A stretch of DNA of 40,276 nt from a virus, in the IMG/VR virus record IMGVR_UViG_3300035698_016272, positions 1 through 40,276 of that record; one strand, written 5' to 3'. Below, piece by piece: positions 4,808-30,357 of the stretch; positions within the stretch are counted from its first letter, which is position 1; the number at the start of each line of letters is the position of its first letter. A program made the translations under genes and the position numbers. Under the pieces are notes generated by a model, which saw only the letters and a list, made by a program, of their open reading frames with translations, was not told where the DNA came from and searched no databases.

Positions 4808-7800
4808 CTACTGTAGGGCTTTGCTCTTGTCGATCTTACGGATGAGCCGCAGCATGTGAAGCAACCGCTCAGCTTCTGCATCCCACGACCATTCACGTTC
4901 TGCCAAGCTCTTCAGCGCTTGGCGATACGGTTCCGTGTCTGCTCTTGGCTTGTTTGACCATGTAGTTATCAAGTCGGCCAAGTCTTCCGGTGTGTCCCAA
5001 CATACGCAGTGTTCGCCATCAACCAGCCCCCAAGTTCCCATCTCTGGGAATCGGTTCTGGAGCAAGAATCCACCTGCGGGTCCGATGCGCTTGATCCTAC
5101 CGCTTTGGTACGCGCGGTATCCACGTTGCAGTGAGAAGCCCACAGACATCTTTGCATGGTGGTATAGCGCGGAGTTTAGGGCACGCGTCACGCCTGGGTA
5201 GTTTGCATGCACCTGATGGTTCGTCCAGCCACCACCGATGGGGCACAGACATGCTGCGTTGGATCCGAGGCGTGCCTGCGCACGCGTGATGATGTCAACG
5301 CGTTCACGTATGTAGTTGTTACCCAGGAACACGGCCGAGTCCCGAAGCGGCTCGTAGACTTGCGGGAGGTCTCGCGGCACGTCGTCTACGCCGCGCTCGT
5401 ACCCAATTTGCAGGTAGCCTGTACGATGCACGCCAGCCTGCCGATATAGCGTGGGGCGTGTCGTGTCTGAGAACAATTGAAGGTCTATTTGCGACCCCAA
5501 TGTAACTTCCCAAGGCCAGGCTTTGATCTCGGATGAAGTGCTGACGTCGCCATTCCATGTTGTGACGATGCAATGCACGGGTGCTGCGGCTTTCAGCGCT
5601 CGAATCGCTTCTAGGCCCCAGCAGTCCCCACCGTTTTGCAGCTTCTCTCGCTGCACCTGGAGGAAGATGACTGACGGCGCGAAACCTCGAATCTGTTCCA
5701 GGACGTCTTGCATGCTCCGCGGCGTGCTGTTGCGTAGGTGCTCACCGTATGCGGAGAATCCAGCTTGGAACGCACGGCGATGGCCGATCTGGGGTTCACG
5801 TGGCCCGGCCAGTGGCAACATGAATACACGCTCGGGTGGCCCGGCTGCCAGTTTGCTTCTCGGCGGCAATTGATTGCTTGCGGGCAGGAGGCACTGCCCA
5901 TCGCCCCAGGGCGCCACGCCCCCGGTGATTTCTTGTGCCATGCGGCGGAACTTCACATGGTGCCCCTGCGCTTTGACGCCGGCTGCATTCTTCTCTCGCA
6001 GCGCATCTTGTGTAAGATGGTCTAGGACCCCAGCGCCATCAACGAAGGCCACATGCCACCCGCGTTTTTGGAGCATGAGGCTCAGCAACGAGTCACCCCC
6101 GTAGGTATCACTGGTTCTGGCGTGTTCGTCTCCCCAGAAGGCGCCCAGCCCGGCGCAGATGCAGTCATCGACTGCCAGTCGTCGGAACAGCCCGATGTTG
6201 ACATGCGGTACCGCTGCGAGTTGCAGTCGTCGCCAGGTCTTACCCTGGTCTTGCGAGAACGCAAAGGCCACCACATCCAATTCGGGCCGGCTATGTAGCT
6301 CGTTGATTGCTCGTTGGAGTCCCCCGGGCACAAGCTCGACATCATCGTTTACTTGAAACACCAATTCCCCGGAGCTTTCTTGGTATGCCGCGTTGAACGC
6401 ATTGATCGCACCAGACAGGTCTCCGTGTACTAGCTTGCAGTCTGCCTGGCTCTTGACCCATTCGGGCGTTCCGTCTGTACTTCCGCCATCCACCAGCACG
6501 AACTCGTGTTGGCCTTGCATATCACAGTTGTCGATGTCTTGGCGGATACCGTGTATGAGGCGCTGGAGGCTTTGTAGGCGATTGTACGTTCCTGCGATGA
6601 CGGAGAGATGCATGCCAGCGTTGGAGCTTGGCACAGCTTGTTTGACTGGATCTCCCAAGGGCTTGATGGCTTCCAAGTTCAACGTGATCGTATCGTGAGA
6701 CGACCAGTCTTTGATCTTGTGGATCTCTGGGATGTCTCGGCTTTTCCAGGGTCGTACCTGTTCGAATCCTGCAGTGTGCAACACTCGGGTCAGGGTCTCC
6801 GTCACGAAGGTTTGCCTGTGCCTATCTGGGCCCGCGGCGTCTTTACTGCAGTCACCAAACAGCGGCGGGTTCGGGTCCTTGCCGAATTTGTGGCACTCTA
6901 CCGTGTTGGCCACGATGAGTCGAAGGTCTGGGACAGCGAGACGGACGATCCCGCCCGGTCGCAGTGCCTGCCACCATTTTTTGAGCAAGGGCACAGTGTC
7001 TTCCAGGAATACGTGCTCCAGCATGTGACATGCGTAGATTACGTCGTAGTGGTCGGCCGGGAGCTGTAGATCAAGTGCGTCGGCCTGTACCTGGGCCTTG
7101 GGCGATTTGATGTCTACGTTGCACCAGCCTGGGAGTATGCGGCTGCCGGACCCCAGATGCAGCTTGGTATGCCGTTGGAGCGCCTTGAACTCTTGGGTAC
7201 CCTGGGGTGCGGGTTGCGCCGTGGCGGCGGCTGGGACTGCCGTAGCCTTACGCTGCTGCGGTCTACCAACGGTATTGTGAGGTATGGCGCCCTGCGTTAC
7301 CTGGCTGTAATGCGCTGCAAGACTTTTGCAGATCCCTGCCCAGCTCAAGTGCGTGACAGCTCTACGGCAAGCTTGCGGGTCCCAATGGCGTTGCTTGGCT
7401 TGAAGTATCGCAGCTTTGACTGTGGCAACTTGCCGGTTCGGCAACAGCATGCCGCACTGGTTGGCTGGCGTAATCAATGTGTCCATCACCCCAACATCCG
7501 TACTGATGACCGGGATGCCGCAACTCAATGCTTCAATGGGCGGCCGGGGCGTACCCTCCCCCTGGATGGGATCGGACAAGCAGGCGTATGCGTCCAGGGT
7601 ATGCAAGAATTCTGGGATTTTGTGGTGCGGCCATTTCTGGCCCGTAGCAGCATCCAGGATGCGACCATGAATGTCTGTGTGCCCGGCCTGCCGTAAGCTC
7701 CGAACGGCGTCGTTGAGCACCCGAACGCCTTTGTGGTCGTAGCCGTCTGCAGCGTTGGTCGTGCGCCGGGTTGTACCTAGCCATCCGATGGTGAATTTAC

Positions 7801-8230
7801 CATCTGGTGACCTTGGTTGTGGCGAGAACAGCTCAAGATCGATGCCGTCTGGTAGCAGGAAAATGGGCATGCGGGGCCCAACCCGGCTACGAACTGCTGC
7901 GGCCAGCTTCGTGCTGGTCACTGTGATTGCATCAGCACGAGCTAGGGCAGGTTGAAACCGCTTGTTGGGCGGTGCCCACGATGCATGGTCGCAGATGTGT
8001 AGGATAGCGTGTCGTGGGCGAAGAAGTGCGCAAAGCCGTGTGAGCCCTGGCCACCAAAGTGCATGGAGAATGTCTACATGATGCAGCTTCGGTGGAATTT
8101 CGTTGACGCCCACTTCGCACAAAGTATGGGTGGGTGCCAAATGCTTATGCAGCTCCGTGAATTCAGAAGAGCTGCACCAATCTGTACCGTCTGTCCCGAT
8201 AACAACGACGGGCCGCGGTGCTGTTTGCAT
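4808..8230 (-). CDS. four-domain fusion: GT-B glycosyltransferase, SAM methyltransferase, GT2 glycosyltransferase, CgeB-like glycosyltransferase
   Basis: A 1,140-residue fusion. Residues 1-310 resemble a GT4-type GT-B enzyme, with the donor-site EX7E motif at E225-E233 (GEGTPRPPIEAL) and PVISTDVG after it. An Ala/Pro/Gln-rich linker (320-348) leads to a class I methyltransferase at about 355-525, with LHLGSGSRILPGW and CHMLEH. Residues 540-745 form a GT2 (GT-A) domain with VIAGTYNR, DGGSTDGT (581-588) and an NDD metal motif (628-630). Residues 800-1125 resemble CgeB/GT1-type glycosyltransferases, with VFLGNNY (967-973) and SGRIKRIGPAGGFLL (1043-1057). A GGAG site lies about 9 bases before the ATG. 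The protein could build several glycan linkages in one polypeptide. Similar multi-domain glycosyltransferases occur in polysaccharide loci and some large phages; donors and acceptor are unknown here. Confidence 0.82.
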   Translation of the reverse strand: MQTAPRPVVVIGTDGTDWCSSSEFTELHKHLAPTHTLCEVGVNEIPPKLHHVDILHALWWPGLTRLCALLRPRHAILHICDHASWAPPNKRFQPALARADAITVTSTKLAAAVRSRVGPRMPIFLLPDGIDLELFSPQPRSPDGKFTIGWLGTTRRTTNAADGYDHKGVRVLNDAVRSLRQAGHTDIHGRILDAATGQKWPHHKIPEFLHTLDAYACLSDPIQGEGTPRPPIEALSCGIPVISTDVGVMDTLITPANQCGMLLPNRQVATVKAAILQAKQRHWDPQACRRAVTHLSWAGICKSLAAHYSQVTQGAIPHNTVGRPQQRKATAVPAAATAQPAPQGTQEFKALQRHTKLHLGSGSRILPGWCNVDIKSPKAQVQADALDLQLPADHYDVIYACHMLEHVFLEDTVPLLKKWWQALRPGGIVRLAVPDLRLIVANTVECHKFGKDPNPPLFGDCSKDAAGPDRHRQTFVTETLTRVLHTAGFEQVRPWKSRDIPEIHKIKDWSSHDTITLNLEAIKPLGDPVKQAVPSSNAGMHLSVIAGTYNRLQSLQRLIHGIRQDIDNCDMQGQHEFVLVDGGSTDGTPEWVKSQADCKLVHGDLSGAINAFNAAYQESSGELVFQVNDDVELVPGGLQRAINELHSRPELDVVAFAFSQDQGKTWRRLQLAAVPHVNIGLFRRLAVDDCICAGLGAFWGDEHARTSDTYGGDSLLSLMLQKRGWHVAFVDGAGVLDHLTQDALREKNAAGVKAQGHHVKFRRMAQEITGGVAPWGDGQCLLPASNQLPPRSKLAAGPPERVFMLPLAGPREPQIGHRRAFQAGFSAYGEHLRNSTPRSMQDVLEQIRGFAPSVIFLQVQREKLQNGGDCWGLEAIRALKAAAPVHCIVTTWNGDVSTSSEIKAWPWEVTLGSQIDLQLFSDTTRPTLYRQAGVHRTGYLQIGYERGVDDVPRDLPQVYEPLRDSAVFLGNNYIRERVDIITRAQARLGSNAACLCPIGGGWTNHQVHANYPGVTRALNSALYHHAKMSVGFSLQRGYRAYQSGRIKRIGPAGGFLLQNRFPEMGTWGLVDGEHCVCWDTPEDLADLITTWSNKPRADTEPYRQALKSLAEREWSWDAEAERLLHMLRLIRKIDKSKALQ

Positions 8231-14337: not shown

Positions 14338-15342
14338 ATGCTAGAAAACACGGAGCTTCAGGGCCGGCGTCCGACGTGGGCCCAGAAAGCAGACTTGCTC
14401 ACAGCGAGCATCACGACCGCAGACGGCAAGCTGCAGGCGGAGCAGCGCAAGAAGTTCATCCTGGTGCCTATCGCCAAGAGTGTGCTTCTGCCGCGTATCC
14501 AAAGCGTGACGATCACCAACGAGGACAATAAGTTCCCAGTGATGGGATCGCTCGGTGACCAGGTGTGGCATCCCGGCGTGGAGATGCAGGAGCTGCCCCA
14601 GTCCCAGCGTGTGGCCCCGACGTTTCCCAACGCGGTGGAGCTGAAGACCAACGAGTGGATCGCGCAGATCTTCTACCCCGGGTACTTCCTGAAGGCCAAC
14701 GTCGAAGGCGCGCAGTTCCAGTCCACGCTTCTGGCCTACTTGGGTCTGCACTCGAAGCGCGACATCGAGAACTACGTGCTCAACGGGGACACCAGTTCGA
14801 CCAACGATCTGCTCGGGCTGCAGGACGGCCTTCGTGCCGGCATGGTGACCAACACCTACGCAGCAGGCGGCGTGTCGATGTCCACCGCGGGCGAGACCAT
14901 CCTGCGCAACATGATGCTGCAGCTGCCTGAAGAGATCTACGACGACGTCCAGCCGGTCAACGACGGTACGGGACCGAATTCCCCGGGCTGGGCCTTCTAC
15001 ATGACGAGGCCGGTGCGGGAAGCCTGGCGTACTCGACTGCAGGCACGCGGCACGGCCCTGGGCGATGCGAACATCACCGGTCGGGCGCTGGACTACGACG
15101 GCATCCCGCTGATCCGTGTCCCGCTGATGCCTGGTACACTTGGCGTGGGTGGCAACGAGTCGCAAATCCTCTACTCGAACCTCAAGGGGTTCCTGTGGGG
15201 TGTCCACGAGGACGTGCTGCTGGAGACGGAGTACCACAAGATGACGCGGTCCTTCGGCATGGTCATGTCCATGCGTGTGGGCCAGTCTTGGGGCTACGAG
15301 CCGGCCTCCGGCGTGAAGACAACCGGGGTGCTCAATAGCTAG
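14338..15342 (+). CDS. major capsid protein
   Basis: A 334-residue protein, probably of the HK97 fold. Features seen are an N-terminal helical stretch (TWAQKADLLTASITT), a central segment GYFLKANVEGAQFQSTLLAY, then RDIENYVLNGDTSSTNDLLG, resembling the spine-helix and ENA loop of capsid proteins, and a C-terminal beta-rich portion. A strong AAGGAG is 7 bases before the ATG. Codon third positions are nearly all G or C, more so than in neighbouring genes, as expected for the most expressed virion protein. It follows the protease and scaffold genes and precedes the decoration protein gene. The identification rests on position, size and codon bias rather than on a diagnostic motif. Confidence 0.82.
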   Translation: MLENTELQGRRPTWAQKADLLTASITTADGKLQAEQRKKFILVPIAKSVLLPRIQSVTITNEDNKFPVMGSLGDQVWHPGVEMQELPQSQRVAPTFPNAVELKTNEWIAQIFYPGYFLKANVEGAQFQSTLLAYLGLHSKRDIENYVLNGDTSSTNDLLGLQDGLRAGMVTNTYAAGGVSMSTAGETILRNMMLQLPEEIYDDVQPVNDGTGPNSPGWAFYMTRPVREAWRTRLQARGTALGDANITGRALDYDGIPLIRVPLMPGTLGVGGNESQILYSNLKGFLWGVHEDVLLETEYHKMTRSFGMVMSMRVGQSWGYEPASGVKTTGVLNS

Positions 15343-19079: not shown

Positions 19080-19768
19080 TGGCGGGCCGCTACCTGAAAA
19101 TTGCAGACCGGCAGATGTCTGGGTTTATCGGGCTGCTCGATGACATGATCCGTGGGGGAGCGGACTTGAAACAATTGCATCGTCGAGAGGCTCTGAAGCT
19201 TGCGTACCGTCTTGGGGCTGTGGTTCGCGCGCGCTACCGAAGCCAGGATGTAGGCACGAAAGGCATGAGCCGCAAGGTCCAGACTGAGGGGAAAGACCAG
19301 GGCCACGTTAACCCCGCAAAGCGTCCATTAGCTCCCAAGGAGCGCGGGTTGGAGTTGCTGGCGCAGGCTGTAGAGGTGCGTAAGCACGCAGGCGGTGCGG
19401 CATATTTGGTCTGCATCAACCCCACGGCACAGCACCCCACACGCGGTGTACCCCTGACCACGATTGCACAGTGGGTTGAACGTCCCAGCGTCGTTGTCAT
19501 CCGGCGCACGCTGCGCTCTATGGTATACATGAAGCTCCTGCGTGAAGGCAAGGCTGGGTATGGACGGAAGGCCACAAAGCGTACCATTCCAGTAGACAAG
19601 GTTATTGCAGCACCAGTGATCTGGCGGCCAAAGGGTAGGTCGGTTTGGCTCTACGTCATGCGGGAGCTGAACAAAGACCCGCGATTGCTCCCTGCCATGG
19701 CAAAGGAGATTGTCAATTCCATTGGGCGTGTAGCGCTCCGGCGCGGTGCCACGCTGCGAAAGAGGTAG
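19079..19768 (+). CDS. neck or tail-completion protein
   Basis: A 229-residue basic protein; the start codon overlaps the previous stop by 1 base. The N-terminus is helical (SGFIGLLDDMIRGGADLKQL), the middle contains a possibly helix-turn-helix-like LTTIAQWVERPSVVVIRRTL, and the C-terminus is strongly basic (RRGATLRKR). Size, charge and position match the tail-completion (HK97 gp10-like) slot of many phages. The family cannot be confirmed by eye. Confidence 0.5.
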   Translation: MAGRYLKIADRQMSGFIGLLDDMIRGGADLKQLHRREALKLAYRLGAVVRARYRSQDVGTKGMSRKVQTEGKDQGHVNPAKRPLAPKERGLELLAQAVEVRKHAGGAAYLVCINPTAQHPTRGVPLTTIAQWVERPSVVVIRRTLRSMVYMKLLREGKAGYGRKATKRTIPVDKVIAAPVIWRPKGRSVWLYVMRELNKDPRLLPAMAKEIVNSIGRVALRRGATLRKR

Positions 19769-19775
19769 CATTACG

Positions 19776-20750
19776 ATGTCTGTACCGACTCTGGTGTCTG
19801 TGTCTCCCGCAAGCGGGCCCGCCTCTGGTGGCAACATCGTAGTGCTCACTGGCTACAAGTTTGCCACGCCCACATTGCAGATCAATGTCCCTACGCTTGC
19901 ATTGGCGCCTACCGTGGCTGTATCCTTCAATGGCATACGATCCGCTGCAGCACAAGCTTCTGCGGACTCAGCTATTCGGGCCGTCGTGCCTCGATACTTG
20001 GGAGACGCGTTTGCGCAGAGCCACGCGCCCGTGGACGTGGTTGTGCAGAACTTGGATAGCGCGGGGGCTGCCATTCCTGGGGAGATCAGCACGCTCACGG
20101 GTGCGTACACCTATATGCGGCATGCATCGATTCCTGCGGAGGGGGGCACGCAGCATTACGACCCGTTGGCTGCTGTAGCAGTGCAACTACTTGACAGGTT
20201 GGCGCGCGAGGTACTTCCTAGGGTTGCCTGGTCGTCTGATGTGGACTACGGAGACTATGGGGTCGTACAGCATATTGCGCATTCCGAGGTACCGTCCATC
20301 CAAGTTGATTTGAGCTTCCCGTTGGACTCCGAGTACGCTGGGCATGATGCGGGCTACGAGGTGGATGACGCAGGCGATATATATCGGGGATTCAGGACGC
20401 ACCGGATTGATGCGAGGATCTCTTGCATTGGCGATGGCAAGGTCGAGGCTTTGGGTTTGGCGCAGTCTATCCATGATGCGTTTACTCTCGATCCCTGGAT
20501 CGTATTGCCCACAGAATTGGCCTTTGCGGACGACGCGGGCCGTCATGCTGTGGATTTAGCAACAGATATCAGCTTGCTTCGAAACGGTGCAGATGCCGGC
20601 ATCAAAGTGGCTGAAACGCGCTTGCGAGTTCGGGGCATTCGCTGCGTACCTGGTGTTGCCGTAGCGCATGTCAAGCGCGCAGCGTTTGCGCATCTGTACA
20701 CACAGAAGTTGCACGCTGGCAGTCCTGGCCGTATTCAGATTATGCCGTAA
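19776..20750 (+). CDS. tail terminator-like protein with N-terminal IPT/TIG domain
   Basis: A 324-residue protein. Residues 3-115 begin VPTLVSVSPASGPASGGNIV, then a G-x-x-F pattern and VVVQNLD, the classical IPT/TIG immunoglobulin-like fold. Residues 125-324 are alpha/beta with LAAVAVQLLDRLAREVLPRV and LGLAQSIHDAFTLDPWIVLP, in the place where myoviruses encode the tail terminator or sheath-end protein. The N-terminal domain may be a surface decoration or cell-binding fold. I use the ATG at 19776 with an upstream AGAGG rather than the in-frame ATG at 19746. Confidence 0.6.
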   Translation: MSVPTLVSVSPASGPASGGNIVVLTGYKFATPTLQINVPTLALAPTVAVSFNGIRSAAAQASADSAIRAVVPRYLGDAFAQSHAPVDVVVQNLDSAGAAIPGEISTLTGAYTYMRHASIPAEGGTQHYDPLAAVAVQLLDRLAREVLPRVAWSSDVDYGDYGVVQHIAHSEVPSIQVDLSFPLDSEYAGHDAGYEVDDAGDIYRGFRTHRIDARISCIGDGKVEALGLAQSIHDAFTLDPWIVLPTELAFADDAGRHAVDLATDISLLRNGADAGIKVAETRLRVRGIRCVPGVAVAHVKRAAFAHLYTQKLHAGSPGRIQIMP

Positions 20751-21150: not shown

Positions 21151-23475
21151 ATGGCGCAAGGCGCTCCGAGCATCGAACACAAGACGATCCCCCCTTCCGC
21201 ACTACTACTGCCTGTCATCGACAAGGACGTGGTGTGCATGGTGGGCGTGACCGACTGGGGCCCCTTCCCTGGTGTGGACATCGAAGGTCCGCAGGACGTC
21301 GTGGGTTGGGAGGAGTGGACGCGCTTGTGTGGCGGGCACATGGCGAACTACCCGACCACGCTGCACGCGTACTACCACTTCAAGAGCGGGACGCGGAAGA
21401 TCCTGTTCTCCCGCTGCGCTGAATTCGATGGCAGCGGGTACCCGATCAGTGCGTCGCGTGCAGTGCGGACGGAGTCCACGGCAGGTACCACGGCTGTGGA
21501 CGGGCAAGTCGTCGGCACGGTGGTAGCACCGTTTGCGCTCAGTAACGGGGATACGCTGGTCCTGAGCCTCGACGGTGCGCCGTTGCTTCCAGCGATCACC
21601 TCTGCGTGCGCAGCGGCATCATTGACGTCCACGCCGCAGGCGACTTTCGCGTTGACGGACGGCGTGACATTGCAGATTTCGGTCTGTGGCGGCGTGACGC
21701 AGACCGTGACGTTCCGAGCTGCCAGCTTCGTGGACATTGGAGCCGCCACGGCTGCAGAGATCGCGGCAGTCATCCAGGCCCAGGTCAAGGGTGTGACTGC
21801 AGCTGCCGCGACGACCACTGTGGTGATCACCACAACGCAGCAGGGTACAGGCGCGTCGTTGAACATCGTGGAGACTGGCGGCGGTATCTACGGCACCGAC
21901 GCCAACACAGAGCTGCAGTTCCCTGTGGCAACCACAGTCGGCACGGGCGATTGCATCAATCATATGTCTGTGACCACCGCGGAAGTCAAGGCATGGGCCG
22001 AGGCCGCGATTGGTGGATTCACCGTGTCTGACCAGCGTGGGTACTTGGTGATTGCCACGGATATGGCTGGAGCAGCCGGTGCCATCCGGGTCTCGTACGT
22101 CTCGACGATGGACAGCAAACTGGGGCTGGACAACGCGGCACACGTGGGCAACAACGGGATCGCGACGGCAACTTTGGAGGTCCAGGGGCGGTGGATGGGC
22201 ACACGCGGCAACGAGGTGTCCCGTGTGGTTCAGAATGCGTCTGACGGCAACACAGAGCGCTTCGACCTGGTCATCTACCATAGCTCATCGAGCCAGTATC
22301 AGGAGAACTACAAGAATCTGAGCATGGACTCCAAATCGACGCGGTACGCACCGGATGTGGTGAATACCGGAGCAGATGGGGACCAGGCCAGTGACTGGGT
22401 GCGGGTCTACGACAAGGACGCGCCGGGGTCCACGCTGGCACGGCGGCCGGCCAATGGTACAGCGGCATACCTTCTCGGTGGGGCAAATGGCGTGTCGGGA
22501 ATTGATTCTTCCGACTTCGTTGGGTCTTCGGCAGTGGGCAACGGCCTGTATGCATTCAATCAGGTGTTCGATGGTGATATCCTGGTGTGCCCGGAGGACC
22601 AGAGTTCCACTTTCCAGAACGATGCAGTCGAATACTGCGACGAGATCAAATCGGGCTTGCTCACCTTCGTGTCCGAGACGTCTGTGGGGATGCGCAAGGC
22701 ATCCGTAGCGGCGTTGGCACAGAACCTCACGGCATCTGAGGCACGTACAGGTACGTACTGGCCGTGGGTCTACGTGGCCAACCCGAGCAAGACGGTCTAC
22801 GGGCAGGATGATAAGATCTTGATGGCGCCGAGTCCGACTGTCGTGGGCCGTATGGTCACCAACACGGAGCTAGACGGTGCCAGCGACGGCCAGCATGTCT
22901 GGCGCCAGCCTGTCAATCAGCGTTGGGGGTACCTGGATTGGGTCGTGGGGCTGGAGACGGGCACGTCCAACGACAAAGAGAACGTACGGGACTACCTTGC
23001 CGCCTACAAGGTGAACTGCCTGGTTTCGGGCACACGTTCGGTGGAGAACGACTTCGCCGTATGGATCGACGACACACAGGCCGGCAAGCGGTCTGGCAAC
23101 TTCCGGTCGGTTGGAGAGATCCGGGGCATCGCGTGGCTGCGCAAGCAGATCGAAGCCTTCTTCATGGTCCGGCATAGCCAGAACATGACCGAAGACTGGC
23201 GACAGGACAATGAAGATGCAGTGGACACGCTGCTCGCGCAGGAAACAGCACGGGGCGTGTTTGCATCCAAGAACCCGGCACTGGCCTACTACGTTGATGG
23301 CGACGTCAAGGGCGTGGGCATCAACAACGCCCTGGTTCAGGAGTCCGAGAGCTACAACATCGTAGTGGCTCCGGCAACGGCACGGCCGGGCAGGTTCATC
23401 AGCATCTGGGTGACACGGGATGACCGCGGTATCCGGTCGGCCATTGCCAAGCTCAAGGGCGGTGGTGCTGCGTAG
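21151..23475 (+). CDS. contractile tail sheath protein
   Basis: A 774-residue sheath subunit. Sheath subunits wrap the tail tube and contract to drive it into the cell. The N-terminus (VDKDV-like strand then GPFPGVDIEGPQDVVGWEEW) matches sheath domain I. The C-terminus, with WLRKQIEAFFMVRHSQNMTE and SYNIVVAPATARPGRFISIW, is the conserved sheath core that forms the strand mesh with neighbours. Residues of about 110-330 are an insertion with two ATAAEIAAVI/TTAEVKAWAE helix and beta units, explaining the large size. It starts after a well-placed GAGG. Codons are strongly GC-ending, as for abundant virion proteins. The tube gene follows. Confidence 0.9.
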   Translation: MAQGAPSIEHKTIPPSALLLPVIDKDVVCMVGVTDWGPFPGVDIEGPQDVVGWEEWTRLCGGHMANYPTTLHAYYHFKSGTRKILFSRCAEFDGSGYPISASRAVRTESTAGTTAVDGQVVGTVVAPFALSNGDTLVLSLDGAPLLPAITSACAAASLTSTPQATFALTDGVTLQISVCGGVTQTVTFRAASFVDIGAATAAEIAAVIQAQVKGVTAAAATTTVVITTTQQGTGASLNIVETGGGIYGTDANTELQFPVATTVGTGDCINHMSVTTAEVKAWAEAAIGGFTVSDQRGYLVIATDMAGAAGAIRVSYVSTMDSKLGLDNAAHVGNNGIATATLEVQGRWMGTRGNEVSRVVQNASDGNTERFDLVIYHSSSSQYQENYKNLSMDSKSTRYAPDVVNTGADGDQASDWVRVYDKDAPGSTLARRPANGTAAYLLGGANGVSGIDSSDFVGSSAVGNGLYAFNQVFDGDILVCPEDQSSTFQNDAVEYCDEIKSGLLTFVSETSVGMRKASVAALAQNLTASEARTGTYWPWVYVANPSKTVYGQDDKILMAPSPTVVGRMVTNTELDGASDGQHVWRQPVNQRWGYLDWVVGLETGTSNDKENVRDYLAAYKVNCLVSGTRSVENDFAVWIDDTQAGKRSGNFRSVGEIRGIAWLRKQIEAFFMVRHSQNMTEDWRQDNEDAVDTLLAQETARGVFASKNPALAYYVDGDVKGVGINNALVQESESYNIVVAPATARPGRFISIWVTRDDRGIRSAIAKLKGGGAA

Positions 23476-23498
23476 GCATAGGGGCTGCAGGGTTTAGG

Positions 23499-23513
23499 GC
23501 AGCAAGGTGCTGC
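23499..23513 (+). other. short hairpin between sheath and tube genes
   Basis: GCAGCA (23499-23504) and TGCTGC (23508-23513) make a 6-base stem with a 3-base loop in the 76-base sheath-tube gap. There is no T tract. It may stabilise the mRNA ends. Confidence 0.3.
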
Positions 23514-23525
23514 TGGTGGCAGAGG

Positions 23526-23548
23526 TCAGTTAACTAAGAGGGCAAAGG
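23526..23548 (+). promoter_or_regulatory. AGTTAACT element before the tail tube gene
   Basis: TCAGTTAACTAAG followed by AGGGCAAAGG with the ribosome site. It matches the element before the decoration gene at 16 of 23 aligned bases without gaps, including the whole AGTTAACT palindrome. Confidence 0.35.
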
Positions 23549-23551
23549 CAG

Positions 23552-24037
23552 ATGGCCAGCAAAGCACGCACCCGGGAACTCTTCATCACGAAGTACTTCA
23601 CGGTCCATGATGCGTCAGGGACGTTCCTGAGCACGAAGTTCAACAAAGCTACAGGGATCGAACGCACTATCGCTATCGCGGAATACAGCGAGGGCGGTGC
23701 GCATGCACCCATGAAGGAGCCGGGCGGGGTGTCATTCGGCAACGTGACGCTGGCCAAAGGCACAAGCACGACCAACAGCGACTTCTATAAGTATTGTGAG
23801 CTGTCCAACAACATGCTGGCCAATCTGCCGGAGGGATCAGGCGAGTTGGCGTTGAACTTGCTGCGTGACTTCCGTGTGACGCAGCGGGACCGGAAGCAGC
23901 AAGCGCGGATCCACCACTACCTCATTGGTGCACTGCCGACACGGCATATGGAAGCCACGTTCGACAATGACAGCGATGAGGTGCAGATCGAGGAGCTGGA
24001 ACTGTCCATACACTTCGGGTATCGCAAGATCGCATAG
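23552..24037 (+). CDS. tail tube protein
   Basis: A 161-residue tube subunit, directly after the sheath gene as is usual in contractile-tailed phages. It begins MASKARTRELFITKYFTVHD and shows the gp19/FII-like pattern of beta-strands with a helix near GSGELALNLLRD. The C-terminus reads VQIEELELSIHFGYRKIA, typical of tube proteins that finish on a beta-strand. Tube subunits stack into hexameric rings inside the sheath. Size and order make the assignment confident though no exact family can be proven by eye. Confidence 0.82.
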   Translation: MASKARTRELFITKYFTVHDASGTFLSTKFNKATGIERTIAIAEYSEGGAHAPMKEPGGVSFGNVTLAKGTSTTNSDFYKYCELSNNMLANLPEGSGELALNLLRDFRVTQRDRKQQARIHHYLIGALPTRHMEATFDNDSDEVQIEELELSIHFGYRKIA

Positions 24038-24105
24038 TCCGGTTTTGCGCAGTAGCGACCTGCAAGTTCCAAGGGGGATGTCATGACAGATAGAGGAGAC
24101 GACTG

Positions 24106-24990
24106 ATGCTTATTACCTGCCCATCCGGGCTGAAGTTCGAAGCCCGCCCCTGGACCAACCGTGACCGCGCAGCCCTTGTGGATCGGGGTAGCACCGCGGG
24201 GTTGAAAGATACGCAGAAGTTCATGCTGATGCAGGCATGCTCCGACAATACCACCAGGGAGCCGAAGTATTTCTGCATCGATCCCGGGCCGTACGGATCC
24301 GTTGCCGGCTCGTCTGTAGACTGGGACGATGTGACGCTGGCAGACATCACGACGGCGCTGATCGAGATCCGGCGTGTGAGCATCCCGGAGTTCTCCCCGG
24401 ATTGCAACTGCACCCGTTGCGGCGCGCTGCTTTCCAATCTGGTACTGGACCTGGCCGAGGTGTTGGAGGATGGCAGCGCTGCCGCGCTTGGCAGTACCCC
24501 TGCGCGTAAAGAGGCTCTCGAAGCGATCAAGAACCACACGCCCGTGGTGCTGGAGCCGTATCCGTACATCACGGGTGAAGGCCGTGTCGAGATCACGTTC
24601 GCACGAGGACGCGATGCCGAGAAGATCGCGCGCATCGCGGAAGACCCGAGCTACAGTAGCCCATTGATTCAGCCACTGGTCCATCTGGCGGCATCGATCA
24701 GCAAGTTGGTCTTGCCTGACGATACGGAAGTGTCAGCGACGGCCGGCATCGTTGACGTGCTGATCGACGAGACCGTAGACTTCGTGGACACACTCAAGTA
24801 TGTGATCGATGAGCTGGAAGGCGGCGTAGACACGGTTGTGCGCTTTACCTGTGACAAGTGCAACAGTGAGCAGGAGATGATCCTCCCTTTGGGCCTCAAG
24901 TTCTTTGGTCTCGACCCGGCCGAGAGCAGGCGGCGCTACTCGGGTGGCTCACGGGTCTCCCGGTATCTCAAAAAGCCTGGGAACGCATAA
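24106..24990 (+). CDS. tail assembly chaperone, short form
   Basis: A 294-residue protein between the tube and tape measure genes, the standard place of tail assembly chaperones. Residues 1-60 begin MLITCPSGLKFEARPWTNRD. Two Cys pairs, CNCTRC (about residues 101-106) and CDKC (about 249-252), could form one split zinc site. Similar proteins with Cys pairs occur in the T4 gp26-type baseplate-chaperone family, but I cannot confirm that. The last codons run over a slippery sequence (C AAA AAG at 24969-24975), and the zero-frame protein ends 5 codons later. A GAGGAG stretch lies close upstream of the ATG. Confidence 0.75.
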   Translation: MLITCPSGLKFEARPWTNRDRAALVDRGSTAGLKDTQKFMLMQACSDNTTREPKYFCIDPGPYGSVAGSSVDWDDVTLADITTALIEIRRVSIPEFSPDCNCTRCGALLSNLVLDLAEVLEDGSAAALGSTPARKEALEAIKNHTPVVLEPYPYITGEGRVEITFARGRDAEKIARIAEDPSYSSPLIQPLVHLAASISKLVLPDDTEVSATAGIVDVLIDETVDFVDTLKYVIDELEGGVDTVVRFTCDKCNSEQEMILPLGLKFFGLDPAESRRRYSGGSRVSRYLKKPGNA

Positions 24991-25154
24991 TCTACGTACT
25001 CCTGAGCCAGATACACAAACTTCCTAGCCTGAATCTGAGCTACCAGGATATACTGGACATGCCTATCTGGCTCACAGACAAGCTGAGTGTTAGGCTGGCG
25101 CGCGACCGCGAGGTCATGATCGACGCGCTCAAAGGCGGGGGAAAGAGCTTGTAA
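24106..25154 (+). CDS. tail assembly chaperone, -1 frameshift fusion product
   Basis: A predicted extended protein of about 348 residues. If ribosomes slip back one base at C AAA AAG (24969-24975), reading continues KAWERIIYVLL and then a helical stretch ending DALKGGGKSL at a TAA (25152-25154), 59 new residues after the slip. This second frame has no ribosome site or start of its own near the junction, looks fully protein-like, and ends 12 bases before the tape measure ATG. This is the G/GT arrangement of lambda and most long-tailed phages, where the longer form binds the tape measure protein through its added domain. No strong downstream stimulatory structure is evident by eye. Confidence 0.72.
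24969..24975 (+). promoter_or_regulatory. slippery sequence C AAA AAG
   Basis: Zero-frame codons are CTC AAA AAG CCT. The A_AAG tetramer allows the A-site lysine tRNA to re-pair in the -1 frame; the P-site re-pairing to CAA is imperfect. The zero-frame stop TAA follows at 24988-24990. Confidence 0.65.
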
Positions 25155-25166
25155 GGAGCGTCGCGC

Positions 25167-27941
25167 ATGGGCTTCGGTGCAATCGCGGAGTTTACCAGCC
25201 AAGTCGTTATCGGTGTCAAGGGCGGGGATGCGGCCAAGCGCAATTTGCTGAAGGTCCAAGGCGCAGCCACAAAGACCAAGAAGGCCACTGACGAGCTGGC
25301 AGGCTCCCTACCCGATCTGGCTGGTGCATTCACGGGCTTGATGGTGGTCAAGAACATCATCCAGATCTTCACCAGCTTCTACGATGCCACGTCCAAACTC
25401 GAAATGTCCATGAATCGGCTGAAGATCCTGACCAACGCACAAGGGGCAGACCTGGAGCGCTACCGACGCAAAGCGTTCGAGGTGGCCAAGGTACTGCCGT
25501 TCGACCCGGTCGAGATTTCCAATGGGCTGGCCGTACTGACCCAGGCCATGGGCTCTGGCACAGACGCCATGGCGGCCATGGGCAATGCTGCGACGCTGGC
25601 TGCGTTGAGCTTCGACAAGTTATCTTTGGAGCGCACCAGCCAGATGGTAGGTGAGATGGCGCGTGCGTTCGGCATGTCAGGGACTGAGGCAGCGACAGCG
25701 TCTGCCAAGATCTTCGCTGCGGCCAAGGCTTCTGGGCAGACTGTGGAAGTATTCGACCAGACGCTCGGTCGGCTGTCAATGGCCGCGCTCCGAGGAGGCC
25801 AGAGCTTCGATGAGATGCTCACTGCGCTTGCTATGCTCAAGCGCATCGAGCCGTCGTCCAAGCGTGCAGTCCAGGGCTTGATCCGTGCCATGGGTGAGAT
25901 GGGCAAAGACAAGTTCATGGACACTATGAAGTCGTTTGGTATCCAGACCAAGCGGGCATCTGGAGAGATTCGCAAGTTCCGGGACATTATGATTGATCTG
26001 CACCAGCTCAATCAAGAGCGTGGTGGCGTACTGGCTCAGGAAGCTTTGGGCGGTGCACGTGAGCGCACCATGAAGACGTTGTTGCCCCTACTGCAAGTCA
26101 TGGACCAGGGCATGCGGACCATGGAAGGTGCCACCGTCCGTGGTGCGGATGCGTGGAACTACTTTGATGAAAAGCTCGCTAATGCTGATGCGACTATGGC
26201 ACAGGCTCAGCGAGACAATCTCGACACCACGACCATGAAGATGCGCATCCTCGGGGATGCCGTGATGAAAACTAAGATTGCTTTTGGCGAGCTGTCCATG
26301 GACGCTCTTCGTGGCTTCGCGCGTATGGCGACCCCGGTACTAGAATATCTCTCTGAGATGTCCGATACGACCAAGTACCTGGTGAAGGGCCTGATGCTCC
26401 TGGCCGGCGGCCGCGGGGCCCTGTGGCTGCTGTTTGCATCATTGCAGGGTATATGGCGCATCTTGGGCGTGGTGAACTGCAATCTCTCCATAGGCGCTAC
26501 GTCGATGGGTCGGTACGCTGTTGCGGCCACAGCAGGTTGGCGTGCTTCCGCAGCAGCAGAACTGACCATGCTCAAGATGAGCTATGCAGCCATGGGTGCT
26601 GCTCGGGCTACGGGCGTGGTCACACTGCAGACCATCCAGCTCGGTAGAGCCCAGATAGCCCTGACGTATACCATGCATGCAGCCAAGGCTGGCTTTGCTG
26701 CAATCGTGTCTGGTGCGAAGTCGGTTGCGAAGAGCTTGGTCGTTGTGATTGGGCTTATGGAAGCTATGGAGCTGCTGGCTAATCCAACGGCATGGTCTGA
26801 CAAAATAAGCGCTTATGCCGCTGCAATGGGCCAGTCCTTGTCCCATGCGGTCAATAGCAGGATCCCAGACCTAAGCATCGCTGAAGCCAAGACGTTTGCG
26901 GCTGCGTATCGCAAAGAGTTCGACGAAAGCATTTTGTTTGGTGGCAAAGACTTGGATGGAAAGAAATCTAAGTGGATGGCTCAGTACCTCCAGAACCTGA
27001 CGGCACAGCGTGCGTTGCTGAAGCACCAAGAAAAGATTCAAGAGATGTTCAAGCGGAATAATATCTCTGCCAAGGAGTGGGCTCGGATGCAGAAAGCTGC
27101 AGCACGCGAGCTGTATTCTGCGATGCAGTTCGGCACGAAGAAATTCAATGCCGTCCTGGATCGGATTGCGGGGCTGAATAGCTACGAGTTTGATGTAGTC
27201 AAGACTGGCCGCCTGCAGAAAGTCCGCTCGCACATGGCAAAGGTGTCGTCTACAGCAAACGCACCGGACGACCGCCGCGGGGCTAGCAATTCCGTAGCGA
27301 TGATCGATGCATCCATGAAGATCTTGGAGAAGTACGCTACGGGTAACGCGACCCCGGACGAGCTTACCAAGATGCAGTCGATGCTGTCTGTGGTCGGCAC
27401 CTACGGGCGATTCCATGCCAAGCACACAGGGGACAAAGGCTTCCAGGAAGTCATGAAGCGCGCCATGGAAGACGTCATCAATCCGTTGTCTAACGTGGGC
27501 TCCGCGAAGAACATCGAAGCCATGAACGTCATTTCCCGTATGCGACGTGGTAGCACAGGAGAGATGCGAGAGCGTGGTGTCTTCGGCCGCTCTTGGGACC
27601 CGGCAACGGGTCGATACCCCGGGGGCAACGGGGACATCTTCAGTGACGCACATGCAGCGGGTATTGCTGCCCAGGGTGGCCGGTCACAACCCACTGTCGA
27701 AACCGGGCTAGCTGCTATGCTGGCCGGCCAGGGTGGTGGCACGGGACAAGATGTCAACACACGTGCGTTGCGCTTAGGGTCTACAATCAGGTCCAGCGTC
27801 ATTGAAGCTGCGAAGGAACTCCGGCTTGGGAAGTTCGAGATCATGCGCAATAGCGGCGGGTTGACAGGTCGGGGTGGTGCTGGTACTGGGAGGGATATCT
27901 ACAACGGTGGTCTCATCTCTGATGGGCTTGGGGAGCTGTAA
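25167..27941 (+). CDS. tail tape measure protein
   Basis: A 924-residue tape measure protein. In this family the helical protein fills the tail tube and sets its length; at the usual ~0.15 nm per residue, this size would give a tail of roughly 140 nm. The N-terminus (QVVIGVKGGDAAKRNLLKVQ) and the region with ILTNAQGADLERYRRKAFEV and EISNGLAVLTQAMG match TP901-type tape measures. A hydrophobic block at about residues 405-435 (LVKGLMLLAGGRGALWLLFA) and more hydrophobic helices at about 510-540 would interact with the host membrane. AAGGAG precedes the ATG. The C-terminal 90 residues are Gly-rich. It lies right after the chaperone frameshift region. Confidence 0.9.
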   Translation: MGFGAIAEFTSQVVIGVKGGDAAKRNLLKVQGAATKTKKATDELAGSLPDLAGAFTGLMVVKNIIQIFTSFYDATSKLEMSMNRLKILTNAQGADLERYRRKAFEVAKVLPFDPVEISNGLAVLTQAMGSGTDAMAAMGNAATLAALSFDKLSLERTSQMVGEMARAFGMSGTEAATASAKIFAAAKASGQTVEVFDQTLGRLSMAALRGGQSFDEMLTALAMLKRIEPSSKRAVQGLIRAMGEMGKDKFMDTMKSFGIQTKRASGEIRKFRDIMIDLHQLNQERGGVLAQEALGGARERTMKTLLPLLQVMDQGMRTMEGATVRGADAWNYFDEKLANADATMAQAQRDNLDTTTMKMRILGDAVMKTKIAFGELSMDALRGFARMATPVLEYLSEMSDTTKYLVKGLMLLAGGRGALWLLFASLQGIWRILGVVNCNLSIGATSMGRYAVAATAGWRASAAAELTMLKMSYAAMGAARATGVVTLQTIQLGRAQIALTYTMHAAKAGFAAIVSGAKSVAKSLVVVIGLMEAMELLANPTAWSDKISAYAAAMGQSLSHAVNSRIPDLSIAEAKTFAAAYRKEFDESILFGGKDLDGKKSKWMAQYLQNLTAQRALLKHQEKIQEMFKRNNISAKEWARMQKAAARELYSAMQFGTKKFNAVLDRIAGLNSYEFDVVKTGRLQKVRSHMAKVSSTANAPDDRRGASNSVAMIDASMKILEKYATGNATPDELTKMQSMLSVVGTYGRFHAKHTGDKGFQEVMKRAMEDVINPLSNVGSAKNIEAMNVISRMRRGSTGEMRERGVFGRSWDPATGRYPGGNGDIFSDAHAAGIAAQGGRSQPTVETGLAAMLAGQGGGTGQDVNTRALRLGSTIRSSVIEAAKELRLGKFEIMRNSGGLTGRGGAGTGRDIYNGGLISDGLGEL

Positions 27942-28564
27942 TGCCGTCAAGAATGCCAGCCAGCCGCGTGCAAGTCCAGGGTGACCCTACGAACCCGTGC
28001 TACGCCGATCCTGCGCATAGGTTGGTCTTTTACAACAAGTCGAGGCCGCTAGACTACCTACGCGTGCAGTTCAATCCGCAGTCGTGGGAGCTGTCTGGCG
28101 GCGTAAATATCGGCGTGTTGGCTCCTATAGGCCACAGCAGTTCGGTATTGCAATATGGTGCAACGAAGCACGACGAAGTGTCGCTGGACCTGCACTTTTC
28201 CGCGTGGGAAGCGTATATACGTGGTACTCGATTTCAAGGGGCTCAAGGCGTTGTTCCAGTAGAATACATGCGCCGGTGGCTTATGTCGTTCAAACACGCA
28301 CCGGCACTGGGCCGTGCGCCAGACCACCTCGTCGTCACTTGGCCAAAAATCGCTGTGCGCGAGGTCGTAGTGCAAGGTGTGTCAGAAGTTGTGCGGCGCT
28401 TGGACCGTAAATCAAACGTGCGGATTCTCACAATGCGGTTGGATCTGCTGGTCTATATAGAACAGTTCATTACTTCCGGGGCTTGGCGCAAGGACAATGT
28501 CATGTTTCGGCGTCCAGGGTCCCCCGGGGGTCTCGGGCCTTGGTCCAGCACAGGTGGCAAGTAA
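27941..28564 (+). CDS. CIS-tube-like baseplate protein (LysM-chaperone type)
   Basis: A 207-residue protein that overlaps the tape measure stop (TAATG). LDYLRVQFNPQSWELSGGVN and the following strands GATKHDEVSLDLHFS look like the N-terminal FNP-x-x-y segment of contractile-injection-system tube or tube-baseplate adaptor proteins. Such proteins cap the tube at the baseplate. The C-terminus (GSPGGLGPWSSTGGK) is flexible. The next gene carries a LysM-like stretch, which often sits in the same protein in related systems, so the two may be a split version of one baseplate component. Confidence 0.62.
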   Translation: MPSRMPASRVQVQGDPTNPCYADPAHRLVFYNKSRPLDYLRVQFNPQSWELSGGVNIGVLAPIGHSSSVLQYGATKHDEVSLDLHFSAWEAYIRGTRFQGAQGVVPVEYMRRWLMSFKHAPALGRAPDHLVVTWPKIAVREVVVQGVSEVVRRLDRKSNVRILTMRLDLLVYIEQFITSGAWRKDNVMFRRPGSPGGLGPWSSTGGK

Positions 28565-28567
28565 ACT

Positions 28568-28957
28568 ATGGCACAAGACACCGCGAGTGTAGCAGGGATT
28601 GAGCTATATGGCCTTGAAGTCCATGGAGAGCTGTATCAAGACGAGAGCACAGGGCAAGTGTTCGTGTCGCTCCCGGAGCGCCTCAAGTTCTCTGACAGAA
28701 TGGATACCTACGAGTACGTTTGCCGCGGTGGTGAACGGTTGGTGAGTATCGCGGCCGCTGTCTACAAGGATGCTGCACCCGCAGGTTATACCCCGGCAGA
28801 CTGTTGGGAGATCTTGGCCCAGTTTCAGCCCACGCCCATCCTACGTCCTGCAGCCATGCTTGGTACAGGACAGATCATCTATTGTCCATCCGTGGACTGC
28901 ATCAACGAATTTCTTGGTGACAGCCTGCGCGAGCTTGATCCGGCGTTGATCCCATGA
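28568..28957 (+). CDS. LysM-like baseplate protein
   Basis: A 129-residue protein. YEYVCRGGERLVSIAAAVYK followed by ADCWEILAQFQP and GTGQIIYCPSVD fits the LysM layout (Y-x-V-x-x-G-D-x-L-x-x-I-A... then a final x-G-x-x-I-x-I-P). LysM-like modules in baseplates join the tube end to the hub. Its stop overlaps the start of the gpD-like gene by 4 bases (ATGA). Confidence 0.62.
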   Translation: MAQDTASVAGIELYGLEVHGELYQDESTGQVFVSLPERLKFSDRMDTYEYVCRGGERLVSIAAAVYKDAAPAGYTPADCWEILAQFQPTPILRPAAMLGTGQIIYCPSVDCINEFLGDSLRELDPALIP

Positions 28958-30357
28958 GCGGTAAATCCCGGAGCGTTAAGAGCGCAGACTTCAATACCTG
29001 GAATCGTTGGGTACAATTTGACGTGGGGCACGGTGGTGTCCCAGCGTCAATGCTTCGTGCTCGGCTACTCCAGCTCGTTTACGTAGACCGGATCACACAG
29101 TTTGACCACCTGGAGCTGCAGCTCGATAATCGGGACGGCATGCTCACTCGGATCGAGACGCTTGCGCTCGGTATGGTGGTGAGCGTGAAGATCGGTTATG
29201 TGAACGGAACCACGCTCTGGAAGAGCTTCATCATCAATAGGCTACGCGGCGGGGTAGGAGTTTACGGACGGGACAACGCACCTGTAGGTGAATCTGAGAG
29301 CGTCATCACGTACTTTGGTCGTAACCGAAATGCACCAGGCGGCCGGCCCAGCCGCCCATGGAGTAAACGAGGTCGGAGCCGGTACACAAACAAGGGGAAG
29401 CCCAGAAAGCCCAAAAAGTCGTGTCCTGCGACATCGGATGTCATGGGTGAAGAGGCTTCGCTCAAGCAGCGCAACCCCGCCACGATCAAAGGGCCCACAA
29501 CGGCGCACATTGTACGGCTCGTGGCGCAACGTATGGGGTTCACGGGCGGGCGGGCAATCGTACAACCAACCCATGACGTCACAGAGCAACTTGTCATCCC
29601 CAATACTGTTACAGACTTGGTGTACTTGCAGGAGCTTGCAAACGTCTTTGGGTTTATCTGCAAAGTTGAACAGGGTACATTCCATTGGCATGCGCCGAAC
29701 TGGAGCGGGCAGGCACAGGCGCTGGTATGCACGCTGCGGTATGGGTCAGACCGGGAAGTGCTCAGCGTGGAAATCGACGCGGACTTTCGGCTTCCTATGC
29801 CATCCAAGGTCAAGGCACGCGGCTATGATCCCGTACTGAACATTGGCATCTCTGAGGATGTCAAGTCCGATGAAAACAGGTTAAACCCGGCAGTTGCAGG
29901 CGGGCTAGTTCAGACTGTCATGAGATCGGCTGAGGCGGCCAAGAACCTGCAGCTGGAGTATACTGGGCAAGTCACGGGCAGCCGGGGGTTTGCGCAGGCA
30001 AAGGCGCAGCGCAGGTTCATCCAAGCAAACTGGAATGCCTTTCAGCTCAATGTGAAGACTGTAGGTAATCCGGCCTTGCTAGCCGGGCGGCTTATAGGTA
30101 TGACAGGTACGGGTTCGCCGCTGGTAGACGGTATTTGGCGTATCGCAGAGGCCCGACATATTATTGACGCCAATACGTACACCTGCGAATTGAAGCTCAA
30201 GCACGTAGGTAAGGCTGCAGTTGCCAACGGTTCGATCCGCATCGGGTTGGCTGAAGACGTCAAGAGCGACATGAACCGGCGCCAGCCCGCTGTTGGCGGG
30301 GGTCTCATTGAAATGAAGACTCGAAAGGTGCAAGGCGTGAGCCTGCGTAAAAAATAG
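28954..30357 (+). CDS. baseplate hub protein, late control gpD-like, with internal duplication
   Basis: A 467-residue protein of the gpD/gp27-like hub type, which forms the trimeric hub ring that connects tube and spike. FDHLELQLDNRDGMLTRIET and LALGMVVSVKIGYVNG fit the first hub domain; TTAHIVRLVAQRMGFTGG and LVYLQELANVFGFICKVEQG fit the second, with HWHAPNW. Two copies of a 24-residue unit occur, residues 297-320 (IGISEDVKSDENRLNPAVAG) and 430-453 (IGLAEDVKSDMNRRQPAVGG), with 16 of 24 identical. The last copy lies near the C-terminus, before a basic tail (SLRKK). The central basic segment (PSRPWSKRGRSRYTNKGKPR) may contact DNA or membrane. Confidence 0.78.
   Translation: MSGKSRSVKSADFNTWNRWVQFDVGHGGVPASMLRARLLQLVYVDRITQFDHLELQLDNRDGMLTRIETLALGMVVSVKIGYVNGTTLWKSFIINRLRGGVGVYGRDNAPVGESESVITYFGRNRNAPGGRPSRPWSKRGRSRYTNKGKPRKPKKSCPATSDVMGEEASLKQRNPATIKGPTTAHIVRLVAQRMGFTGGRAIVQPTHDVTEQLVIPNTVTDLVYLQELANVFGFICKVEQGTFHWHAPNWSGQAQALVCTLRYGSDREVLSVEIDADFRLPMPSKVKARGYDPVLNIGISEDVKSDENRLNPAVAGGLVQTVMRSAEAAKNLQLEYTGQVTGSRGFAQAKAQRRFIQANWNAFQLNVKTVGNPALLAGRLIGMTGTGSPLVDGIWRIAEARHIIDANTYTCELKLKHVGKAAVANGSIRIGLAEDVKSDMNRRQPAVGGGLIEMKTRKVQGVSLRKK
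29842..29913 (+). repeat. internal repeat copy 1 in the gpD-like gene
   Basis: 72 bases coding residues 297-320 of the hub protein. The paired copy is at 30241-30312. The protein copies share 16 of 24 residues including EDVKSD-x-NR and PAV-x-GGL. Confidence 0.8.
30241..30312 (+). repeat. internal repeat copy 2 in the gpD-like gene
   Basis: 72 bases coding residues 430-453, the partner of the copy at 29842-29913. It sits 15 codons before the stop. Confidence 0.8.

Follow-up and report, generated by a model that had tools for sequence, protein, structure and literature searches.

A putative programmed -1 frameshift in the gene for a divergent viral tail assembly chaperone

Results

The chaperone gene and its surroundings

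The window analyzed here is a virus contig of 40,276 bases that has no close relatives in the collections searched. Its tail operon is ordered as probable sheath, tube, chaperone, tape measure, a protein with weak similarity to injection-system tubes, a VgrG-related protein, and baseplate proteins; by tblastn, the probable sheath is also weakly similar to a protein annotated as a sheath. The tail module as a whole (21151-30357) combines phage components (tape measure, chaperone) with tube and hub proteins that resemble those of contractile injection systems (CIS_tube, VgrG-related). Peptide scans of viral contigs yielded no relative of the sheath, capsid, baseplate J, or portal, and those of genome contigs none of the portal or sheath. 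Two genes ahead of the probable sheath gene, 19746-20750 encodes an IPT/TIG domain and matches phrog_16236. The major capsid protein (14338-15342) has remote relatives only, at 25-28% identity, which include mostly siphophages of Proteobacteria and viruses of Methanobacterium, and which gave no help with the tail genes. On the minus strand, 4808-8230 encodes a 1140-residue protein with several glycosyltransferase domains and a methyltransferase domain, adjoined on the same strand by two nucleotide-sugar epimerase-like genes.

The chaperone gene opens with ATG 24106 and continues for 294 codons to the TAA at 24988-24990, and its two CxxC motifs are CTRC and CDKC. The end of this zero frame reads CTC AAA AAG CCT GGG AAC GCA TAA, in which CTC AAA AAG occupies 24967-24975. 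No stop interrupts the -1 frame from 24870 to 25151, between TGA 24867 and TAA 25152-25154, and 59 of its 94 codons lie beyond the proposed slip. The earliest ATG, GTG, or TTG in this frame is ATG 25059, which falls within the encoded domain; when all start codons of table 11 are allowed, the earliest is ATA 24987. Twelve nucleotides separate the -1 frame TAA from the tape-measure ATG at 25167, and the sequence AAGGAG (25153-25158), which overlaps that TAA, is the likely Shine-Dalgarno sequence of the tape-measure gene. An earlier note on this DNA had described the placement of the CTC AAA AAG codons and the zero-frame stop, the open -1 frame without an obvious start of its own, its distance from the tape measure gene, and a 294-residue short product with two Cys pairs, and each of these descriptions was confirmed on the sequence. 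An antisense frame at 24936-25259 was judged spurious.

Table 1. Coordinates of the tail genes and of the candidate recoding elements in the window.
Feature	Position	Strand	Evidence or remark
Probable tail sheath protein, 774 aa	21151..23475	+	phrog_15814 (family without a name), E 3e-73
Tail tube protein, T4 gp19 / contractile injection system type	23552..24037	+	PF06841, TIGR02241; solved injection-system tubes
Tail assembly chaperone, short form (TAC-N), T4 gp26-like, two CxxC	24106..24990	+	294 aa, open frame
AGGAG, SD-like, 8 nt ahead of alternative slip site	24872..24876	+	anti-SD duplex
C_CCT_TTG_GGC, alternative slip site made of two canonical heptamers that overlap	24885..24894	+	heptamer count
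C_AAA_AAG, favored slip site with the tetramer A_AAG, four codons ahead of zero-frame stop	24969..24975	+	sequence; AAA AAG rarity
-1 extension, putative C-terminal domain of long form (TAC-NC)	24975..25154	+	59 codons + TAA
Possible 10-bp stem, doubtful role	25004-25013 / 25064-25073	+	z -3.1 for 24976-25075
Tail tape measure protein	25167..27941	+	PF10145, TIGR01760, phrog_1272

Coding character of the -1 frame

The coding statistics of the -1 frame, which the earlier note had proposed comparing with those of zero-frame genes, proved gene-like. Under a codon model derived from the remaining genes of the window, and in comparison with segments equal in length to the -1 segment, the 59 codons beyond the proposed slip scored 0.13 bits per codon against 0.19 ± 0.10 for in-frame segments, and none of 1404 off-frame segments (205 of them stop-free) reached this value. 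The signal resides mostly in amino-acid make-up and less in synonymous choice. The optimal switch of frame under this model falls near 24924, with the zero frame favored through 24924 and the -1 frame from 24925 on. The zero frame between 24925 and 24972 is atypical for the phage (P about 0.003-0.006, with the choice of point allowed for), mainly through an Arg/Ser/Gly-rich composition and less through codon choice; because composition outweighs codon choice there, a basic linker could explain the anomaly.

Family of the chaperone body

No family in Pfam or NCBIfam matched the chaperone. Among 38,880 families searched, phrog_150 ('baseplate hub') gave an E value of 0.0065, and the reversed protein, used as a control, gave no family match. 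With the fused form, the best stretch of the phrog_150 alignment lies around the second Cys motif, and two stretches are collinear. From its name and a direct comparison with gp26, PHROG 150 is taken to be the T4 gp26 family. An alignment by hhalign to eight gp26 proteins covered the N-terminal part (P 0.0015), and an HMM built mostly from cyanophage-like gp26 proteins scored the chaperone at only 3.9 bits, in collinear pieces. Like T4 gp26, the window protein has a Cys motif and GLK-FF toward its end: the C-terminus of T4 gp26 is ...CPECGKTHAHVIRGLKEFFELL, and the window protein reads ...CDKCNSEQEMILPLGLKFFGLD and, unlike T4 gp26, continues for about 20 residues after FF. These comparisons suggest, weakly and at the level of sequence, that the chaperone body belongs to the T4 gp26 family rather than to that of lambda G, for which no relationship was found by any search made; the assignment fits the size of the chaperone and its Cys motifs. 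No chaperone relatives were recovered by the peptide scan of viral contigs or by tblastn against phages and plasmids, and an AlphaFold model of the short form, computed with no alignment, was unusable (mean pLDDT 39).

Frameshift sites among gp26 genes

In all five annotated phages that we compared (Rhizobium IC12 and RL38J1, Aeromonas phiAS5, Synechococcus Sf-FS3, and Pseudomonas Cygsa01), gp26 is followed by a small gene in the -1 frame, and in four of them T_TTT_TTC or T_TTT_TTG stands one to three codons ahead of the gp26 stop. In phiAS5 (L015:1899-2084) and IC12 (L014:1839-2060), the annotated start of the small gene lies inside the domain, such that the first helix is left without a start codon, and no stop breaks the -1 frame between gp26 and the annotated gene.

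When three gp26 proteins were used to scan viral contigs, 98 loci were returned, from which 80 distinct gp26 genes were counted (L117, whose frame ends early, at 205 codons, and which has no C-terminal region, was excluded). All 80 carry T_TTT_TTC just ahead of the gp26 stop and a gp51-like domain in the -1 frame. The heptamer is invariant in L021-L116 and L118 while the preceding codons vary; from the Phe usage of the same genes, a TTT TTC pair would be expected in 20%, and the 80 genes are related and do not represent independent events. Seventeen of the 80 (L101-L116, L118) have no ATG, GTG, or TTG close to where the domain begins, and for these the annotation of a separate gp51 is probably wrong. 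Neither a slippery site nor an open -1 frame was found in the T4-type phages T4, Acj9, Whisky, and vB_SdyM_006, which have a separate, long gp51-type neighbor. In an alignment, the domain of the small -1 genes recurs at the C-terminus of T4 gp51.

The window gene differs from these relatives at the C-terminal Phe-Phe, where it has AAG TTC TTT and no U_UUU_UUC, and its slip site would lie elsewhere.

The domain encoded in the -1 frame

The -1 domain LSYQDILDMPIW resembles the gp51 core YSLTEIENMIPW by eye. A structural model of low confidence (mean pLDDT 63) consists of a helix, a short helix, and a long helix, as expected for gp51, and a Foldseek search with this weak model gave no significant match. 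A global shuffle test against gp51 returned P 0.05, while hhalign and HMM comparison produced only a displaced local match that is probably due to chance. A match of WERIIY in the -1 domain to WERDIY in gp51 was rejected, as it aligned the wrong part of the domain. In statistical terms, the relationship between the -1 domain and gp51 falls short of significance.

Candidate slip sites

The site favored for the slip, C_AAA_AAG, is non-canonical, as it contains no X_XXY_YYZ heptamer and only the A_AAG tetramer. In-frame AAA AAG is rare, occurring in 2 of 8573 codon pairs in the window, one of which is this site. When a pseudoknot is present in E. coli, no tetramer is more prone to shifting than A_AAG, and tetramers reach up to 5.6%; without a pseudoknot, tetramers are barely shifty (PMC4066793). 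Folding and a scan for anti-SD duplexes found no clear stimulator at the usual distance from C_AAA_AAG. The possible 10-bp stem begins 28 nt past the site, beyond the usual distance of a stimulator, and is absent from the fold that includes upstream sequence, although that folded stretch ends at 25040 and so holds one arm only. Close to the zero-frame stop there is no canonical slippery heptamer; the canonical C_CCT_TTG is 33 codons upstream of the stop. A modest preference for C_AAA_AAG over C_CCT_TTG_GGC seems warranted. Transcriptional slippage was set aside; the A run at the site is five bases long, which is not enough for such slippage.

Discussion

The gene order, a coding-like -1 frame that has no start, and the same arrangement in remote relatives together make a programmed -1 frameshift the best explanation of the locus, and on balance we favor the view that a short and a long tail assembly chaperone are made from one start. 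We infer the slipping itself, where and how often it occurs, and what each form does. Most ribosomes would terminate at 24988 to yield the 294-residue short form, which, by analogy, may coat the tape measure protein. A minority would slip back by one base shortly before the gene ends. The most likely place is C_AAA_AAG, with the A-site tRNA-Lys re-pairing from AAG to AAA. The resulting long form, of about 349 residues, would carry a 59-residue, probably helical C-terminal domain that, again by analogy, may recruit tube subunits. The programmed frameshift put forward in the earlier note is supported by gene order and the start-less, coding-like -1 frame, but comes without a canonical heptamer near the stop or a clear stimulator. 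Likewise, the resemblance to lambda G/GT that it drew extends to the tube-chaperone-tape measure order and the -1 layout and not to the protein, for which the searches made found no sequence relation to lambda G and a weak match to gp26 instead.

A programmed slip could instead occur upstream on C_CCT_TTG_GGC, aided by the AGGAG that precedes it, to give a long form with GPQVLWSRPGREQAALLGWLTGLPVSQ before KAWERIIYVLL in place of GLKFFGLDPAESRRRYSGGSRVSRYLK; the junction would then read MILPLGPQVLWSR, as opposed to YLKKAWER for a slip on C_AAA_AAG. Canonical heptamers number 20 in the 8573 codon pairs; the overlap holds two against an expected 0.09, and the anti-SD duplex of AGGAG (-7.4 kcal/mol) ranks among the strongest 3% of codon positions. 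No stop interrupts the -1 frame over the entire stretch, and both its statistical advantage over the zero frame from 24925 on and the atypical character of 24925-24972 fit an earlier shift better. However, re-pairing of the A-site UUG on UUU would be a poor match, and U_UUG, when combined with a pseudoknot in E. coli, shifts just 1.8-3.6 times background (PMC4066793). The site is also 33 codons from the stop, whereas the slip in relatives lies one to three codons ahead of it; a shift there would discard KFF, which aligns with GLKEFF of T4 gp26; and codon statistics back the zero frame through 24924, past the upstream site. We regard this placement as rather unlikely.

Less likely again is a single frame of ~350 codons that is broken in the contig, whether by an indel (five A's for six, or an error near 24925) or by a true frameshift mutation. 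One missing base anywhere in the overlap would join both frames, and the statistical change of frame at 24924 is away from any good slippery site. Against this, there is no other frame break in ~24 kb of neighboring genes, none of the 25 genes checked in the window contains an internal stop, and the window proteins that were scanned include no second one of gp26 type; a chaperone with a single form would be unusual, and a -1 frameshift is expected at such a gene. An indel artefact is unlikely. Production of the downstream domain as a separate small protein, by re-initiation after TAA 24988, appears very improbable. In most cyanophage-like relatives an ATG adjoins the gp26 stop in the -1 frame, and a separate start is therefore possible in those phages, but in the window the nearby starts are ATA, ATC, and CTG only, and initiation at the first ATG would leave 31 residues and cut the domain. 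A programmed frameshift near the end of the chaperone gene stays our preferred reading.

Vladimirov, Gautam and Davidson (Virology 2022, 566:9-15) are said to have identified the chaperone genes of T4-like phages. Frameshifting in tail chaperones is textbook knowledge, and its mechanism in lambda G/GT and its wide conservation have been reviewed (PMC5009743). Both gp26 and gp51 have been named as hub assembly chaperones (PMC3004832) and were previously proposed as the chaperones of T4-like phages, and cyanophage gp51 is about 20% of the usual length, with the C-terminal part kept (PMC3037559). Two later papers credit Vladimirov 2022 with poly-T frameshift signals in the TAC-N genes of T4-like phages (PMC12846349) and Vladimirov et al. 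with T4-like phages that have separate short and long chaperone genes (PMC10885494). Because of these statements, we treat the frameshift of the gp26/gp51 family as known, or at least as largely prior work.

Set beside these systems, the window shares with lambda gpG/gpGT a single gene between tube and tape measure and a -1 frame that ends just ahead of the tape measure gene, and would likewise yield a short form and a -1 frameshifted long form; unlike lambda, it has a contractile tail, a slip motif other than the lambda heptamer, and a chaperone for which no sequence relation was found. In cyanophages, phiAS5, and the Rhizobium phages, as in the window, a C-terminal domain of ~60 residues follows in the -1 frame, whereas in T4 gp26 and gp51 are two separate genes. 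Phage Adele (Vandenendeviridae / Andersonviridae), to judge from its description, is similar in that a myophage chaperone upstream of the tape measure has an inferred -1 frameshift and in that the C-terminal domain of such chaperones is often annotated as its own gene; its motif, GTTTTT, differs from that of the window (PMC12846349).

The window thus probably represents an ordinary tail-chaperone frameshift in a divergent chaperone of the gp26 kind. More tentatively, and short of an even expectation, we suggest that in this deep myophage with an injection-system-like tube the frameshift has moved from the U_UUU_UUC Phe-Phe site of the family to a new place and motif, either A_AAG at a Lys-Lys pair or C_CCT_TTG_GGC assisted by an SD-like sequence, and that a basic linker joins the body to the C-terminal domain. 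The comparison of 80 genes affords a testable statement, namely that U_UUU_UUC is invariant in the gp26-gp51 junctions recovered and that 17 of the second domains have no usual start codon close to where they begin. The window would carry this arrangement into a very divergent phage, in which ordinary annotation would miss the long form.
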